The notes under the pieces: generated by a model | What the model was told of the DNA's origin: nothing | The model's database searches: none | The model's input: the letters and a program-made list of their open reading frames with translations, nothing else | Program-made: the position numbers and the translations under genes | Source: Clostridia bacterium | GTDB lineage: Bacteria; Bacillota; TC1; UBA5767 | Direction: 5' to 3' | Assembly (NCBI GenBank): GCA_030625965.1 | Contig: DAOUPV010000011.1 | Coordinates: 1-42,873 of the forward strand | DNA length: 42,873 nt | Shown here: piece after piece, positions 3,058-32,249 of the stretch | Layout: every line of letters starts with the position of its first letter | How positions within the stretch are numbered: position 1 is the first letter of the stretch

Positions 3058-4062
3058 ATGAAGAAGAGAATTGTTTTAATAATAAGTATGGTTCTGATGA
3101 TCAGCCTAATGGCAGGTTGCGACCAGATCGGTCTAAATACAGCCGAGGATAAGGATGTTAGCGAGCTTTTGGGCGTGCTGGGGCAGGACCTAGTGTCAGT
3201 AATGGAACTGGGTGAACTGCCGGATCCAGAAATCAAAGGAACCCTGTACTACTATAATAACAGCGAGACCAAGGGATACTTTAGGGGATTCCACTTGGGA
3301 TTGGAGCTGGACGAATCCATGAAAGTGCGTCGTATCTATATCCAACCCTATGGTGAACATAAGATCAGTGTGGAAGGCCTCACCATAGGAGAGAGTGTAT
3401 CCACAGCGGATGCGCTGTTCGGGGCGGGAACCTACAGTCCGGACGAAGATAGCGAGAGCATTTACCGTTATATCGTCTATGCTACGGAAGCCTATGATAT
3501 CAAGTGCACCTTGGAGGGCGAGTCCATCCGGGCGCTTAGTTTCACTGGGCCGGGCATGCAGAAAATATTCCAGGAGCCGGAGTACCGGATCAGTTCTGTT
3601 CTGACCCAGAAAGCGGTAACTGAGCTGTTGGGACCTGATTTCGAGATAGAGACCTCTGAAGACGGCAGTTATTTCGATTATTACACGGTTATGACCTATG
3701 AAGGTATAAGCCTCGAGTATGCTCACAACCGTTATCCCTTTTCAGACGTAAACGTAGCGGATGGGGTGACCATAATATCCCCCCAATTTGCACTTGTGGC
3801 CCTAGATGCTCAGGTGGGGGATTTGGCTAAACCGGTTCTGAAGTTGTGCGACCAGTCCTTTGATCTGGCATATGACCACCACAACGAAAAAGAAATCTAT
3901 GGCTCCTATCTATATTATGAAGAGGGTAAAAGTACACCGGGTGGCAGAACGACATGGATACTGAGTTTTGATTTTGACCAGCAGATCGAGCTGACCGATT
4001 ACGAGTCGATCCCCGACAACCTGCATATCACCGGAATCCGTCTGTGGACGGTGATGGATTAG
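3058..4062 (+). CDS. Hypothetical lipoprotein, DUF4309-like
   Basis: A 334-residue secreted lipoprotein. The N-terminal signal MKKRIVLIISMVLMISLMAGC ends in a lipobox with Cys21 as the lipidation site. The mature part carries two similar segments of about 100 residues. Each has a phrase like LTIGESVSTADALFGAG followed by a tyrosine-rich beta-strand pattern, resembling DUF4309/YjgB-type lipoproteins, though this match is from memory only. AAGGAGAACACG precedes the ATG. It is flanked by terminators on both sides and is probably monocistronic. Function is unknown. Confidence 0.75.
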   Translation: MKKRIVLIISMVLMISLMAGCDQIGLNTAEDKDVSELLGVLGQDLVSVMELGELPDPEIKGTLYYYNNSETKGYFRGFHLGLELDESMKVRRIYIQPYGEHKISVEGLTIGESVSTADALFGAGTYSPDEDSESIYRYIVYATEAYDIKCTLEGESIRALSFTGPGMQKIFQEPEYRISSVLTQKAVTELLGPDFEIETSEDGSYFDYYTVMTYEGISLEYAHNRYPFSDVNVADGVTIISPQFALVALDAQVGDLAKPVLKLCDQSFDLAYDHHNEKEIYGSYLYYEEGKSTPGGRTTWILSFDFDQQIELTDYESIPDNLHITGIRLWTVMD

Positions 4063-27179: not shown

Positions 27180-28262
27180 TTATTTCAGTACGGAAGCATT
27201 ATTGATGAGCAGGGTGCTGTAGAGGAAAAGCACATCCTTTCCCTTGAAATCCACATATTTATCCAGCAAATCCTTCGGCATGTAGCGTAAGTCGACGATG
27301 GTTATCGAGTCGTAGGATTCAATCAAGAGGGGAGCCAGGCTGCTACTGAATGAGTCTCCGAAGATAATCAGTTCTCTGTCAGTAGTATCCAAAGCATTCT
27401 CTATTATGATCAGGGGGGTGGCCCCTGAAAGGAAAACCTCATACGCATCAAAACCGTTCAGTTTGCTCTCAGCGTAAACCTCCCTTTGATCAGTATCTTC
27501 ATAGTTGAAGACCAATGCATTGGCTATGTACTCATTGTAAAGATATTTCAGGCTATCTGGGTTCATATTGGTGGCAACCTGGCCGTAGTAGGCACCGAAA
27601 AATGATGAGTAATCTTTCACCTTATAGGATCCGCTGCTAGCTTCAAAATCCATCGCCTGAGATAGAGCTTCAACAACGGAAACCAATTTCTCCTGCTTCC
27701 AGTGGGGATCGGTGGAATAGTAGTCTTCCAGCGATAGAGAAGGCTTGATATCTATGTAATTCAGAAAGTCCATATCCTGCAGCAGGAGCTTTTCCAGCAG
27801 TTGGTAGTCCAACTTCAATATACTGTCACCCAGAAAATAGTTCTTGTCGGGAATAATGGATAGATAGACATTGCTATCCTGAAGATGCTCGAGATAAATA
27901 TCTGAAATATACTCATTCAGATATTTTACGTTGTCTTCGTTCAGGAGATACTCCAATTTGAATATATGATCTCCCTGAATCAGATAGCCGTTGTTGTCCG
28001 TCTTATGCATCATGTTGTATTCTACGACTGACTTCAATTTTCTAAAGAACTCTCTTCCAACGAACTGATCTAGAACTGTTTCCTCGAAAGCCTCGACAAA
28101 CTCGCCGGATTCCAGATTGGTCCAGTCTAGATCCTCGAACTGCTTCAGAGACCTTCTTTCAGCCAAAGAAACGGCGACAGCCGGGCTGATGAGGTTCAAT
28201 AGCGCAACAGCTATGAGGATGGATATGAATAAGATGCTGATAACTTTATTTTTCATAATCAA
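27180..28262 (-). CDS. DHHW-family protein (AlgJ/AlgX-like acylation partner)
   Basis: A 360-residue exported protein with one N-terminal membrane anchor (ISILFISILIAVALLNLI) and an SGNH-like extracellular domain. The signature segment is YYSTDPHWKQE near residue 180, related to the DHHW motif, and IIFGDSFSSSLAPLL carries the probable catalytic serine. These proteins accept the acyl group passed through a partner MBOAT and transfer it to a surface polysaccharide. The start overlaps the MBOAT stop by 4 bases (ATGA), so the two are translationally coupled. Confidence 0.85.
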   Translation of the reverse strand: MIMKNKVISILFISILIAVALLNLISPAVAVSLAERRSLKQFEDLDWTNLESGEFVEAFEETVLDQFVGREFFRKLKSVVEYNMMHKTDNNGYLIQGDHIFKLEYLLNEDNVKYLNEYISDIYLEHLQDSNVYLSIIPDKNYFLGDSILKLDYQLLEKLLLQDMDFLNYIDIKPSLSLEDYYSTDPHWKQEKLVSVVEALSQAMDFEASSGSYKVKDYSSFFGAYYGQVATNMNPDSLKYLYNEYIANALVFNYEDTDQREVYAESKLNGFDAYEVFLSGATPLIIIENALDTTDRELIIFGDSFSSSLAPLLIESYDSITIVDLRYMPKDLLDKYVDFKGKDVLFLYSTLLINNASVLK

Positions 28263-29662
28263 AACCTAAAATACAGGAATGGGTTGAAAGAAGCATCAAC
28301 CAGATAACCTGTCACGAGTAGCAAAAGCGTGAAAATTGCGACAGTTTCTAATGCTGGTATTATTTTTTTATATTCCAGTTGTGATTGCAGCCGGTGGAAA
28401 ACCTGCTTCATCAACGGCGTTGAACCGACCACGGATACCACAAACATGACGCCATAGCTCTTCAGATAGTAGATGGCTTCCCAGCTCACCAATGGAATAT
28501 CCAAAAGTCCCATCATGCCCTGGAGGACATTGAGGCCGTTTGCGATACTGTCATGGCTGAATATCACAAAACTGAAGACTATGGTTAGAAGAACATAAGC
28601 ATGTTTCAGTGGATTCGGCGCTTTGTCTAGCAGTCGGCCAAGAAAAGCTTTCTCCATAGCGATCATAAGACCGAAGAAGAGTCCCCAGATGACGAAATTC
28701 CAACTGGCACCATGCCATAGTCCGGTCAGAAACCACACTAAGATGAGATTACGGGCCGTTTTCACTGTGTTGCATTTACTACCGCCGAGCGGGATATATA
28801 CGTAGTCCCTAAACCAGGATCCCAGTGAAATATGCCACCGGCGCCAGAATTCACTGATGGACTTGGCAATATAGGGATAGTTGAAATTCTCCAAAAAATG
28901 GAATCCAAAGATTCGGCCCAACCCGATGGCCATGTCGCTGTAGCCGGAGAAATCAAAGTAGATCTGTAAGGAGAAGGCGATTGCCCCCATCCATAGCAGG
29001 AGTACTGACTTATCTGGGACTTGGCTTACGATGGTACTCAGTTCCCCGATGGTGTTTGCCAGCAGGACCTTTTTAGAGAGTCCGATGATGAAGCGTTTCA
29101 CCCCATAAGCGAAGTTCTCGAATGAATGGACTCGGTTGTCAATTTCCTCGGCAATGGTCTTGTAACGCACAATAGGGCCGGCGACCAGTTGAGGGAACAA
29201 GCTGATATACATGCCTAGGCCCAAGATGTTTTGTTGGGCTTTGGCTTCCCCACGGTAGACGTCGATGGTGTAACTCATAGTCTGAAAGGTGAAGAAGCTT
29301 ATTCCCAAAGGTAAGGCCAGACTGAGAGTCCCAATGCTGGTTCCAAGCAACAAATTGAGATTCTCAGCCAGGAAGTCATAATATTTGAAAAAGCCGAGTA
29401 TGGATACGTTGATGATGATGGATGAAACCAAAGCGATTTTCGCATATATCCCGCCACGGAATTTTTCAATGATTAGGCTGTGGCTATAATCGACTACTGT
29501 CGAAAAGACCAAGATCGCCGTATAGACCGGCTCGCCCAAAAAGTAGAACAGAAGGCTGAAAATCAGCAGTACCACGTTCTTAAGGGAACGCGGTACTGCA
29601 AAATAAACCAGCAGGACGAGTGGCAGGAAGTAATAGATGAAGCTGACACTGGAAAATAGCAT
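28259..29662 (-). CDS. MBOAT-family O-acyltransferase (AlgI-like)
   Basis: A 467-residue polytopic membrane acyltransferase of the alginate O-acetylation AlgI/DltB type. Family motifs are SEFWRRWHISLGSWFRDYVY and the catalytic-histidine segment LTGLWHGASWNF. It moves acyl groups from cytoplasmic donors to the outside of the membrane. GGGAG before the ATG lies in the end of the upstream lipoprotein gene, 9 bases away. Together with the DUF4358 lipoprotein and the DHHW protein it forms a three-gene surface-polymer acylation operon. Confidence 0.93.
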   Translation of the reverse strand: MLFSSVSFIYYFLPLVLLVYFAVPRSLKNVVLLIFSLLFYFLGEPVYTAILVFSTVVDYSHSLIIEKFRGGIYAKIALVSSIIINVSILGFFKYYDFLAENLNLLLGTSIGTLSLALPLGISFFTFQTMSYTIDVYRGEAKAQQNILGLGMYISLFPQLVAGPIVRYKTIAEEIDNRVHSFENFAYGVKRFIIGLSKKVLLANTIGELSTIVSQVPDKSVLLLWMGAIAFSLQIYFDFSGYSDMAIGLGRIFGFHFLENFNYPYIAKSISEFWRRWHISLGSWFRDYVYIPLGGSKCNTVKTARNLILVWFLTGLWHGASWNFVIWGLFFGLMIAMEKAFLGRLLDKAPNPLKHAYVLLTIVFSFVIFSHDSIANGLNVLQGMMGLLDIPLVSWEAIYYLKSYGVMFVVSVVGSTPLMKQVFHRLQSQLEYKKIIPALETVAIFTLLLLVTGYLVDASFNPFLYFRF

Positions 29663-29671
29663 GGCTCCCTG

Positions 29672-30148
29672 TTACTCAGCCAAGCCTAGGAAATGCTCAT
29701 GAATGACTTCCGCTTCCTGGTCCATGATCAGGATGACTAGGTCTCCCACATGGTCCACGATGACCTGATCCTCTTCCACACCGACACAGATCCATTTTCT
29801 GGGATCCACGTTGGTTTTGATGGTTTCCATCAGTGCGTCAACATCTGTTTCTTCATTTACACGAAGCAGGACGACTGAGTGGGCGAATGAGGACATCATG
29901 GGTTCGGAGGCCAGCGCTCCAGTATAGGATACATCATCCGTACCCAAGAAATAGGCCACATTGCTATCGTCTAGAATGGTGGTCATCATTGCTGGGTATT
30001 CCTGGTTCACACCCAAGTAAACCTCCGCCATGATTTCATCGAGTGTTCCCGCGATGGAAGGTTCTTCAATCGCCGAATCGCTTCCGGTGCAACCTACCAT
30101 GCCTACGACTAATGCTGCAATCATCATTATTATTACTACTCTTTTCAT
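29672..30148 (-). CDS. DUF4358 lipoprotein
   Basis: A 158-residue lipoprotein with its lipobox cysteine at residue 20 (ALVVGMVGC) and a DUF4358-like domain (FAHSVVLLRVNEETDVDALMETI, then VDPRKWICVG). The frame is open to 30226, but AAGGAGAG precedes the ATG at 30148 and gives a proper signal peptide. DUF4358 genes commonly accompany MBOAT and DHHW genes in clostridia, as here. It is the first gene of the operon; the divergent leader of the surface protein starts about 350 bases away. Confidence 0.85.
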   Translation of the reverse strand: MKRVVIIMMIAALVVGMVGCTGSDSAIEEPSIAGTLDEIMAEVYLGVNQEYPAMMTTILDDSNVAYFLGTDDVSYTGALASEPMMSSFAHSVVLLRVNEETDVDALMETIKTNVDPRKWICVGVEEDQVIVDHVGDLVILIMDQEAEVIHEHFLGLAE

Positions 30149-30494
30149 ATTCTCTCCTTGTTTTGAACTGTATTTGTACTGCAGTACTGTTACTAGGACG
30201 ACTGCAAAAAGAAAAGGTTCCCACAACAGGAGTGGAAGCGGAAAGAATATGCTACCGAGGGAGAAGAAACGTATCCATGCATGCGTTCTATTGTATTAGA
30301 TTTTGCAGAATTGTTTCAGGATGCTCTTTCGGTGGTACATTTATACCGGTTTGGGAGCTCATATATGCTAACTGGTGAATGAGCTGCAGGCTCATTCTGT
30401 GTATGCTGTTATAAGGATTTAAACTCAAATAGCGGGAGATTTCCATTATTTTTCATTCCTAAGTAGCTTGATACGATTAATTAGCGTTATAAAC

Positions 30495-30523
30495 TTGACA
30501 AATGTGGATAATATTATATTATT
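30495..30523 (+). promoter_or_regulatory. Promoter of the riboswitch-controlled surface-protein gene
   Basis: A consensus TTGACA at 30495-30500 and TATTAT at 30517-30522 with a 16-base spacer in a very AT-rich tract. Transcription would start near 30530, about 20 bases before the first aptamer. The preceding 30149-30494 holds no gene. Confidence 0.7.
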
Positions 30524-30550
30524 ATAGTATATATAAAACATGATATATTG

Positions 30551-30647
30551 CTTTTCAGCGATAAGGGCAAACCCATTGAAAGGTGGGGGCGCAAAGCTTG
30601 GGCCTACGTACCGAACGGTATATGGCAGCCGGTTACCGAAGGGAAAG
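30551..30647 (+). promoter_or_regulatory. Cyclic di-GMP class I (GEMM) riboswitch, unit A
   Basis: Matches the GEMM-I core in order: AAGGGCAAAC, a P2 hairpin with a GAAA loop (CCCATTGAAAGGTGGG), GGCGCAAAGC, then a P3 arm with CCTACG opposite TATGG (a GAAA tetraloop-receptor-like pair), and GCCGGTTACCGA. P1 pairs CTTTTC (30551-30556) with GGAAAG (30642-30647). The AGGGCAAAC form keeps the G that favours c-di-GMP over cGAMP. A TTTTTT run follows P1 directly, so ligand-stabilised P1 could act as a terminator stem. The open frame across here is not a gene. Confidence 0.92.
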
Positions 30648-30674
30648 TTTTTTATTGCAGATTTGGCGGAAATG

Positions 30675-30775
30675 ACTTTTCACTGATAAGGGCAAACCCA
30701 TCGAAAGGTGGGGGCGCAAAGCTATTGGGCCTACGTACCGAACGGTATACGGCAGCCGGTTACCGAGGGGAAAGT
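30675..30775 (+). promoter_or_regulatory. Cyclic di-GMP class I (GEMM) riboswitch, unit B
   Basis: A near-identical second copy of the class I aptamer, starting 125 bases after unit A, with a 2-base insertion in the P2-P3 linker and a few substitutions that keep pairing (TATGG to TACGG in the receptor strand). P1 is one pair longer: ACTTTTC with GGAAAGT. The flanking TTTTTTATTGCAGATTT is duplicated too, showing a recent tandem duplication. Every core element is intact. Confidence 0.92.
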
Positions 30776-31001
30776 TTTTTATTGCAGATTTATCGAAAAT
30801 GATGGGCATTTATGATCTAGTACGAATGATCTTAAGTGCACATTCACTTTAGACAGAACTGGTGACACCGTTTATTTAGTTTAACGTAAGTATAGTCGCA
30901 GGATCTATTGACATCAATGATGTGTTCAATCATGTAACGATGCAACAATACTGGTTCTCTAAATGGTAGAAATTGAAAAGGGGTGAGAATGGCGATAATT
31001 T

Positions 31002-31113
31002 GGGAGGAAAACGATAGCAATTATCGTTAAAGCAGTTGATGAAGGGCATAATGAAGCATGACTCGTATGTGGGCACTTGAGTCATGTGGAGTGAGTAGTG
31101 CAACCGACCTTTC
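31002..31113 (+). promoter_or_regulatory. Cyclic di-GMP class II riboswitch, unit 1
   Basis: Carries the class II signature GGGCACTTGA ... GTAGTGCAACCGACC. P1 pairs GGGAGG (31002-31007) with CCTTTC (31108-31113). A perfect 8-bp helix pairs CATGACTC (31057-31064) with GAGTCATG (31079-31086). The pseudoknot pairs GCACT in its loop (31073-31077) with AGTGC (31097-31101). An extra short hairpin ACGATA/TATCGT lies in the 5' junction. The CAACCGA segment, which contacts the ligand in the known structure, is intact. Confidence 0.9.
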
Positions 31114-31120
31114 TTTTTTG

Positions 31121-31196
31121 AGAAAGGGAGCTATGAATTGTATCTTGTAACTGGGCACTTGAGATGCAAGGAGCTAGTAGTGCAACCGACCTTTCT
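31121..31196 (+). promoter_or_regulatory. Cyclic di-GMP class II riboswitch, unit 2
   Basis: The second class II aptamer. P1 pairs AGAAAGG (31121-31127) with CCTTTCT (31190-31196). The helix TTGTATCT (31138-31145) with AGATGCAA (31162-31169) differs from unit 1 at several pairs yet keeps pairing, which is covariation. The loop GGGCACTT again pairs with AGTGC before AACCGACC. The 5' junction is shorter than in unit 1 and lacks the AAAAC seen there, so affinity may differ. Confidence 0.88.
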
Positions 31197-31221
31197 TTAA
31201 ACTTAAGTTTAAAGAAAGGAG
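31190..31221 (+). promoter_or_regulatory. Shine-Dalgarno-sequestering hairpin (class II expression platform)
   Basis: A perfect 30-bp palindrome at 31190-31219 whose 3' arm contains the GAAAGG of the GAAAGGAG ribosome site (31214-31221), 7 bases before the surface-protein ATG. Its 5' arm is also the 3' strand of P1 of class II unit 2. Aptamer folding and ribosome-site masking therefore exclude each other, predicting translation ON with c-di-GMP. Confidence 0.85.
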
Positions 31222-31228
31222 CATTATC

Positions 31229-32134
31229 ATGAAAAAGAATACTTTTAAAAATGGATTACGAGCAAGTTTTTCAATCGTTATGTCGCTGATTTTGATTCTT
31301 GGTTTCAATATGCCTGCAATAGCAGCTAATGATTCGAGTTCAATTAAAACAACTACTTCTACAGGTGAAGCAGTAAACTCGAATCATTACGAAAGCAAGC
31401 AGGAGGTTTATATCCAGTTTGGCTCTAATTTACCGGAGGGCACATGGAGCATTATTGTTTCACAACCAGGCGGTGAAGAATTGGGTACGGGAACGCAAGT
31501 AGTAACCGTAGTGCAGAGGACGTTTAAACTTTGGGATATTACTCAGTTTTCAGACTCCACAAGTGGAGTATACAACGTTGATGCCATCATCTATGAAACC
31601 AATAACGGTGGCAACGAAACGAGGACTATGAAATCTGACAATTTCAAAGTTGATGCGGTTAATGAGGATCAGGATCCAGAAGGTGGAGACGAAGATCCAG
31701 AAGGTGGAGACGAAGATCCTGAAGGTGGAGACGAAGATCCAGAAGGTGGAGACGAAGATCCAGAAGGTGGAGACGACGATCCTGAAGGTGAAGACGACGA
31801 TCCTGAAGGTGAAGACGAAGACCCAGAAGGTGAAGACGAAGACCCAGAAGGTGAAGACGAAGATCATAGAGTGGTTAGACCCAGACGCGACAGACGGCCA
31901 CGTGAGGAAGAAGTAGTTGTAGATGAGGTTCCAGTAGAAGAAATTCCACTGAGTATTTTAGCGTATGAAGCTGAAGAAGAACTTGATCCTTCCCCAGTTG
32001 TTGAAGAAGAATTGGTGGAAGAGGCTAAAGAACCATTGGCTTTGCCGAATACAGGCGCAACCAGTGAAGGACTGATGGGATTGTCATTACTTATTTCCGC
32101 AGCTGGACTACTTATTGCAAGAAAAAAGCTATAA
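31229..32134 (+). CDS. LPxTG-type cell-wall-anchored surface protein with acidic heptad repeats
   Basis: A 301-residue exported protein. It has a signal peptide with probable cleavage after AIAA near residue 33 and a beta-rich domain of about 110 residues. Nine tandem DPEGGDE-type heptads follow (residues 149-211), then a short basic stretch (RPRRDRRPRE) and an acidic stalk. The sorting signal is LPNTG, a hydrophobic helix and RKKL. Sortase would attach it to peptidoglycan. No sortase gene is in the window. The N-terminal domain resembles no family I can name. Its leader stacks four c-di-GMP riboswitches, so it is probably an adhesin or matrix protein made in the sessile state. Confidence 0.88.
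   Translation: MKKNTFKNGLRASFSIVMSLILILGFNMPAIAANDSSSIKTTTSTGEAVNSNHYESKQEVYIQFGSNLPEGTWSIIVSQPGGEELGTGTQVVTVVQRTFKLWDITQFSDSTSGVYNVDAIIYETNNGGNETRTMKSDNFKVDAVNEDQDPEGGDEDPEGGDEDPEGGDEDPEGGDEDPEGGDDDPEGEDDDPEGEDEDPEGEDEDPEGEDEDHRVVRPRRDRRPREEEVVVDEVPVEEIPLSILAYEAEEELDPSPVVEEELVEEAKEPLALPNTGATSEGLMGLSLLISAAGLLIARKKL
31673..31861 (+). repeat. Nine tandem 21-bp repeats in the surface-protein gene
   Basis: In-frame 21-bp units encode DPEGGDE (first five, the fifth ending DD) then DPEGEDD or DPEGEDE (last four). The two sub-variants are grouped, suggesting expansion by slippage; copy number is likely to vary between strains. Confidence 0.9.
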
Positions 32135-32196: not shown

Positions 32197-32249
32197 GAAG
32201 ACAAAGGACGCTATGCAAGAAAACCATAGTGTCCATTGTCTTCTTTTTT
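32197..32249 (+). terminator. Rho-independent terminator after surface-protein gene
   Basis: A long hairpin pairing GAAGACA..GGAC.CTATG with CATAG.GTCC..TGTCTTC, followed by TTTTTT. Confidence 0.88.

Follow-up and report, generated by a model that had tools for sequence, protein, structure and literature searches.

Which Aptamers Precede the Surface-Protein Gene?

Can a single bacterial leader carry four aptamers for cyclic di-GMP (c-di-GMP) that belong to two unrelated riboswitch classes, and if so, what response would they impose on the gene behind them? The question arose from a first-pass annotation of the 42,873-nucleotide stretch of contig DAOUPV010000011.1 analyzed here (the window), which had read two class I and two class II aptamers on one strand ahead of an LPNTG surface-protein gene. 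We searched the window with the Rfam covariance models for both classes, compared the leader with its relatives in other genomes, and examined the expression platforms that may follow the aptamers.

All four aptamers exceed the Rfam gathering scores, which are 35 for RF01051 and 53.5 for RF01786. On the plus strand, the class I units a and b map to 30556-30640 (RF01051, 73.3 bits, E = 1.2e-12) and 30681-30767 (79.8 bits, E = 3e-14), and the class II units A and B to 31035-31118 (RF01786, 71.0 bits) and 31117-31200 (83.4 bits, E = 1.2e-17). The composition read at first pass, two units of each class on the same strand, is thereby confirmed, and the failure of a class II unit to score, which had been named as a possible outcome, did not occur. 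Alignments are full length in every case, covering model positions 1-87 for the class I units and 1-84 for the class II units. A scan of the whole window reports aptamer B without A, since the two overlap by 2 nt and only one of two overlapping matches of the same clan is kept; within a stretch ending at 31117, aptamer A still scores 66.6 bits. Three of the four aptamers had been delimited correctly within a few bases, while the start of class II A, placed at 31002, was approximately 33 nt too early. Neither chance nor over-reading can account for the four aptamers, given their Rfam scores and the related leaders: A second species of the genus has the same 2+2 leader on an orthologous gene, and the own genome contains a 1+2 copy. 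In the RF01051 alignment both class I units have a GGC core with a G that points to a pocket of the c-di-GMP type and not of the c-AMP-GMP type; we take this discriminating G to be position 20 in Vc2 numbering.

The gene behind the leader (31229-32134, plus strand) encodes a surface protein of 301 aa with a signal peptide, a 7-strand beta domain, acidic DPEGGDE repeats and an LPNTG sorting signal. The presence of such a gene had been claimed correctly, as the protein matches TIGR01167 LPXTG_anchor with 18.2 bits (cut-off 15.9). Its fold prediction is weak overall (mean pLDDT 54.5) and gives a 7-strand sandwich with FN3-like matches, all of them weaker than E = 0.001, so that no structure match is found at that level or better. 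Reading of the sequence downstream of the gene reveals a long hairpin followed by a T-run (32197-32249, plus strand), which is likely a terminator and would therefore make this a one-gene transcript.

The divergent neighbors on the minus strand (27180-30226) encode a DHHW protein, an MBOAT acyltransferase and a DUF4358-like lipoprotein; this cluster is likely a surface polysaccharide O-acetylation set adjoining the surface-protein gene. Ten GGDEF-domain matches occur in the own genome and thus indicate that c-di-GMP signaling is present.

Expression Platform of the Class I Pair

In both class I units the closing helix P1 runs into a U-tract. P1 of unit a pairs 30550-30556 with 30642-30648 and is followed by a U-tract at 30648-30653; P1 of unit b pairs 30675-30681 with 30769-30775, followed by a U-tract at 30775-30780. 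The segments 30550-30653 and 30675-30780 (plus strand) are thus candidates for terminators embedded in the aptamer. The U-tract lies directly after P1 in each of the five class I units of three composite leaders, and among the 19 class I units of the genus, 14 show a run of at least five T starting 6-8 nt past the conserved aptamer end, where the intervening bases are the 3' strand of P1. The helix itself is well conserved: Across 13 class I units its pairing amounts to 93.4%, compared to 42-69% with the partner slid, and changes on both sides are observed at three of the seven pairs. No strand other than the 5' strand of P1 was found that could form a stem ending at the U-tract. The same build is present in both units examined of the sister genus G003 and in one of 21 class I units examined outside the family. 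The P1 stems comprise 6-8 bp, rich in A/U and G.U pairs, and are weak for a terminator; P1 of unit b appears in the minimum-energy fold, while the unconstrained minimum fold of unit a is without it.

Ligand binding by class I aptamers stabilizes P1, as is known from work on Vc2. Since P1 meets the U-tract here, binding of c-di-GMP would be expected to terminate transcription. A P1-U-tract class I aptamer is also located before the genes flgB-flgC-fliE-fliF, both in the own genome (L024) and in G003 (L097). The flgB class I switch of Clostridium difficile is experimentally OFF (PMC3649979; PMC6366702), and an OFF sign for the present build is supported by this correspondence. From the anatomy and from the flgB analogy, we infer that the class I pair acts as a transcriptional OFF switch.

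The sign of the class I half is the point at which the main alternative departs. All four aptamers could be ON, with class I acting via unrecognized antitermination or some other effect, such that an adhesin would simply be switched on very steeply. Stacking with the same sign has been proposed for other tandem c-di-GMP riboswitches, and c-di-GMP usually raises adhesins (PMC11477304). In Bacillus thuringiensis, moreover, one adhesin gene is controlled by a class I ON switch, a triplet of class I units is ON as well, and Bc2 to Bc5 are ON with a separate downstream terminator (PMC4933901, PMC4759541). Our spacer, however, contains neither a downstream terminator arm nor a second T-run with which P1 could compete. 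The abutment of U-tract and P1 in five of five units from three leaders, and the use of the same build on flgB, a gene class which c-di-GMP turns off in C. difficile, also speak against an ON sign. We therefore regard a uniform ON response as unlikely, albeit as an explanation to be kept in view. A usable class I match in the phage collection, sought as a control for the sign, was not found.

Class I arrays also occur on a gene for a transglutaminase-type secreted protein, as triplets in G002 and G001 and as a doublet in the own genome (loci L093, L091 and L020, respectively), and the P1-U-tract build is present in all of them.

Promoter-Like Site, Spacer and Probable Unity of the Transcript

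A good promoter had been reported just upstream of the aptamers, and the site TTGACA-16-TATTAT (30495-30522, plus strand, 11/12 matches) was indeed found. It is the only good promoter-like site on the plus strand ahead of the class II pair, and the RNA is expected to start near 30529. In all three composite leaders the best sense-strand sigma-70-like site precedes the first class I unit, with 11/12, 12/12 and 11/12 matches. The stretch that separates the class I from the class II part is free of sigma-70-like sites in all of these leaders, which for the window includes the region 30780-31000, and neither an ORF nor a conventional terminator closes the class I part. Because the sole promoter-like site lies ahead of class I and none is located in between, co-transcription of all four aptamers is likely.

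The spacer between both classes (30781-31034, plus strand) is devoid of promoter-like and terminator-like sites and, except for one box, is not conserved; its identity between the two species is 77%, compared to 74% for shuffled sequence. The box, UACYGGUUMUCU...AAGGGGUGAG, precedes the class II aptamers in each of the three leaders. By the three-leader alignment it maps to 30947-30996 in the window, near 4480-4522 in L017 (own genome, contig C40) and near 3505-3550 on the minus strand in L090 (the second species). The box may be a promoter of another kind, a ribosome site for a leader peptide or an RNA element. A leader peptide after the AGGGGUGAG box was considered and rejected, as the frame differs between the three leaders in an alignment judged by eye.

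Two separate transcripts would be the consequence if the surface-protein mRNA started within 30781-31034 and contained class II only, leaving the class I pair on a short upstream RNA. Tandem class II leaders of other bacteria, which are without class I, do start near the class II pair, and the conserved box could be a promoter outside the kinds that were scanned for. Against this, the spacer has no sigma-70-like site in three of three leaders, compared to sites with 11/12, 12/12 and 11/12 matches ahead of class I, and a unit closed by an ORF or a conventional terminator at the end of the class I part is missing. We give this explanation a small chance, and one shared transcript remains the basis for what follows.

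Expression Platform of the Class II Pair

At the 3' end of aptamer B, an inverted repeat without mismatches (31190-31219, plus strand) allows the 3' P1 strand of B (31190-31202) to pair with a Shine-Dalgarno arm (31207-31219), the Shine-Dalgarno motif GGAG being located at 31218-31221. In the window this hairpin has 13 bp and -15.3 kcal/mol. It keeps 13 bp and about -15 kcal/mol in all of the tandem class II leaders compared, eight in total, except for that of Proteocatella, where it is shorter. In the alignment, 98.9% of the cells pair, compared to 35-70% when slid. As all changes in it are one-sided, this is evidence for conserved pairing and not for double covariation. Formation of P1 on ligand binding would have to open the Shine-Dalgarno hairpin, and thus the class II pair is predicted to be a translational ON switch. 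Where class II units occur singly in the genus and family, they are followed by terminators in which the 3' strand of P1 serves as 5' arm, and such units are likewise ON by anatomy.

The assignment of class I to transcription and class II to translation, which had been proposed at first pass, is in agreement with the anatomy of both platforms, i.e., P1 with a U-tract on the one hand and a Shine-Dalgarno hairpin on the other.

The two class II aptamers are also linked to each other. The 3' P1 strand of A (31108-31114) can pair with the 5' P1 strand of B (31121-31127), and this junction hairpin (31108-31127, plus strand) excludes both P1 helices. In all eight tandem class II leaders the junction pairing beats the own P1 of A, and when the class II pair is folded without ligand, the junction hairpin and the Shine-Dalgarno hairpin both appear in the minimum-energy structure (z = -3.15). 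When only P1 of B is forced in folding, the Shine-Dalgarno is captured by the strand of A, which suggests that both class II aptamers may need ligand before translation starts. When both P1 helices are forced (with only 4 bp for A), it is still largely paired, and the need for both ligands is thus a hypothesis. The Shine-Dalgarno hairpin is the sole platform after the pair; it apparently serves both aptamers, whose P1 strands appear to interlock, and cooperative ligand binding (a Hill coefficient above 1) may follow from such interlocking.

Conservation and Distribution in Related Genomes

The same order, class I-I-II-II, occurs in Peptococcaceae bacterium UBA5767 (contig DIET01000019.1, loci L085 and L090), where the leader precedes an orthologue of the surface protein with 55% identity in the N-terminal part and 49% overall. 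A second copy of the leader, with a single class I unit and a class II pair, is located on contig C40 of the own genome (L017). This 1+2 leader is intact and stands before a frame-broken paralogue of the surface-protein gene (positions 4740-5900 of L017). In the third genome of the genus, which consists of a single contig, neither a class II match nor an orthologue of the surface protein was found; this genome contains a class I triplet on a transglutaminase gene.

Between the two species, class I units are 90-92% identical and orthologous class II units 86-88%. Within one leader, in contrast, the class I copies reach 95 and 97%. As class I copies are most alike inside a leader, the class I part has apparently been added or is being renewed, while the orthology of A and B across leaders indicates that the class II pair is old. 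It is very improbable that the class I pair is left over, without function, from a rearrangement upstream: The C40 copy before its decayed gene indicates that leaders can persist functionless for a time, yet the second species keeps core, P1 and U-tract of both class I units at about 90% next to a spacer at shuffled level, and the high likeness of the copies in a leader implies renewed duplication or homogenization.

On a wider scale, 84,980 species genomes were scanned for adjacent class II pairs by an exact pattern, which yielded six loci; class I is nearby only in the locus of the same genus. No class II pair was found in viral contigs. Class II is present in 107 of the 398 genomes of the phylum sample, and among the matches listed for this sample, class I near class II occurs beyond the genus only in looser or degenerate neighbors (G181, G340, G180, G380 and G341). 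Mixed class I/class II loci are thus not confined to this genus. Four of these loci, L098 (G180), L101 (G380), L100 (G340) and L099 (G181), are found in unrelated families and carry both classes at a short distance on the same strand, in most cases separated by an ORF. In G180, a class I pair stands before a transglutaminase gene and a class II pair after it, followed by genes for signal peptidase and a TasA-like protein. Two of these genomes were considered for the same arrangement as in the window and rejected: G340, with class I and class II 118 nt apart, looks like a degenerate form of the G180 order of class I, transglutaminase ORF and class II, and in G181 a small ORF separates class I from class II.

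One further class II locus of the own genome, L018 (contig C128, 56-407, minus strand), carries one class II aptamer, which has a terminator of its own. A group II intron (D1-D4-3 match) follows this aptamer within approximately 100 nt and is cut off by the contig edge. The vicinity recalls the class II aptamer with a group I intron in C. difficile, and in L018 it is probably a chance insertion.

Proposed Mechanism

Taken as a whole, we consider it fairly probable that the leader is a composite c-di-GMP riboswitch: The mRNA would pass two checkpoints whose signs are opposite, and the output would be a middle band or a pulse. At the first checkpoint, transcription, c-di-GMP would stabilize P1 of the class I units, whereby the aptamer itself becomes the terminator, and two such terminators in series would halt the message at high c-di-GMP. 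At the second checkpoint, translation, the Shine-Dalgarno would be masked without c-di-GMP, as the 3' P1 strand of B forms the 13-bp hairpin with it, and the adjacent P1 strands of A and B would pair together. Once both class II aptamers are bound, both P1 helices would form and release the Shine-Dalgarno. The surface protein would then be made only in a middle band of c-di-GMP. Alternatively, the output may be a pulse on a rise of c-di-GMP, in which stored, untranslated mRNA is activated while new synthesis is cut. Ligand binding, both signs, the interlocking and the band-pass or pulse behavior are all deduced from the sequence.

The first-pass annotation had left the choice between a very steep and a band-pass response. 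Because the signs of class I and class II are opposite by anatomy, band-pass (or pulse) is favored, and plain steepness is to be expected only within each pair. A model with independent sites shows how strongly the output would depend on the two thresholds: The modeled peak amounts to 0.06 of the maximum at equal thresholds, and rises to 0.33 and 0.68 when the class I threshold is tenfold and hundredfold higher, respectively. With a class I threshold below that of class II, the modeled gene is hardly expressed. Co-transcriptional switches usually need ligand above their Kd. In combination with the reported Kd values, which are 1 nM in the case of class I and 0.2 nM in that of class II (PMC12564702), this renders a class I threshold above that of class II plausible.

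A bolder version holds that the leader is a concentration-band filter and a pulse generator on a single mRNA, with a class II half that is truly cooperative through strand exchange between neighbors; to this version we subscribe only tentatively, as the odds are somewhat against it.

Relation to Known Riboswitches

Tandem arrangements within one c-di-GMP class are well documented. A 2022 survey of tandem riboswitches lists 347 doublets and 12 triplets of c-di-GMP-I, as well as 59 doublets and 9 triplets of c-di-GMP-II, the latter mostly on surface-anchor proteins; the c-di-GMP classes are in tandem with their own class, and the bi-mechanism kinds comprise SAM-II/SAM-V, SAM-II/SAM-I-IV and SAM-I-IV/SAM-II (PMC9481103). 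The accessible part of a 2025 survey of contiguous riboswitches describes no mixed class I and class II leader and pools both c-di-GMP classes as one family. Likewise, no leader that combines class I with class II was found described in the full texts open to searching. The statement that no leader of such make-up had been described thus holds for the searchable literature.

In a bi-mechanism tandem, different riboswitches that sense one ligand are combined in a single leader; in our case both models match and a shared transcript is likely. Going by its sequence, the leader is a variant of this kind, the predicted opposite signs being the surprise. With SAM-II/SAM-V it shares two unrelated classes for one ligand in one leader and, as far as its anatomy predicts, control of transcription first and then of translation (PMC9481103). 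Both parts are OFF there, however, whereas the present leader has four aptamers, is assigned to c-di-GMP by its models, and appears to combine opposite signs.

Each half also has its own counterparts. Bc3-5 of B. thuringiensis (PMC4759541) resembles the class I pair in having complete class I units in series, but known tandems of this kind are class I only and Bc3-5 is ON with separate terminators, whereas P1 meets the U-tract here. An aptamer and a terminator stem as a single structure are known from the terminator-embedded HMP-PP riboswitch (PMC6478431), which has another ligand and another fold; in our leader it is the closing helix of a three-way-junction aptamer that meets the U-tract. 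Tandem c-di-GMP-II riboswitches (PMC9481103) correspond to the adjacent class II pair before a surface-protein gene, yet they are classified in the survey as pseudo-cooperative with separate platforms, while here one Shine-Dalgarno hairpin would serve both aptamers and a class I pair lies upstream. In C. difficile (PMC3649979, PMC6366702), class I is OFF on flgB and class II is ON on adhesins and pili; these signs agree with the ones predicted here and the target genes are similar, but the two classes reside on different mRNAs and not on one.

Same-ligand tandems known so far, of the same class or of SAM-II with another SAM class, have been discussed as sharpening or timing a response in one direction. 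In the leader studied here, the direction appears to be reversed between the two halves. The RNA is short and self-contained, and therefore the prediction of a band or pulse can be tested in vitro or by a reporter; the class I platform with P1 as terminator and the shared class II platform are each testable in their own right. If the predicted signs hold, the leader would turn the level of c-di-GMP into a non-monotonic response that needs no protein regulator, and its target would be a surface-protein gene at the transition from the motile to the attached state.
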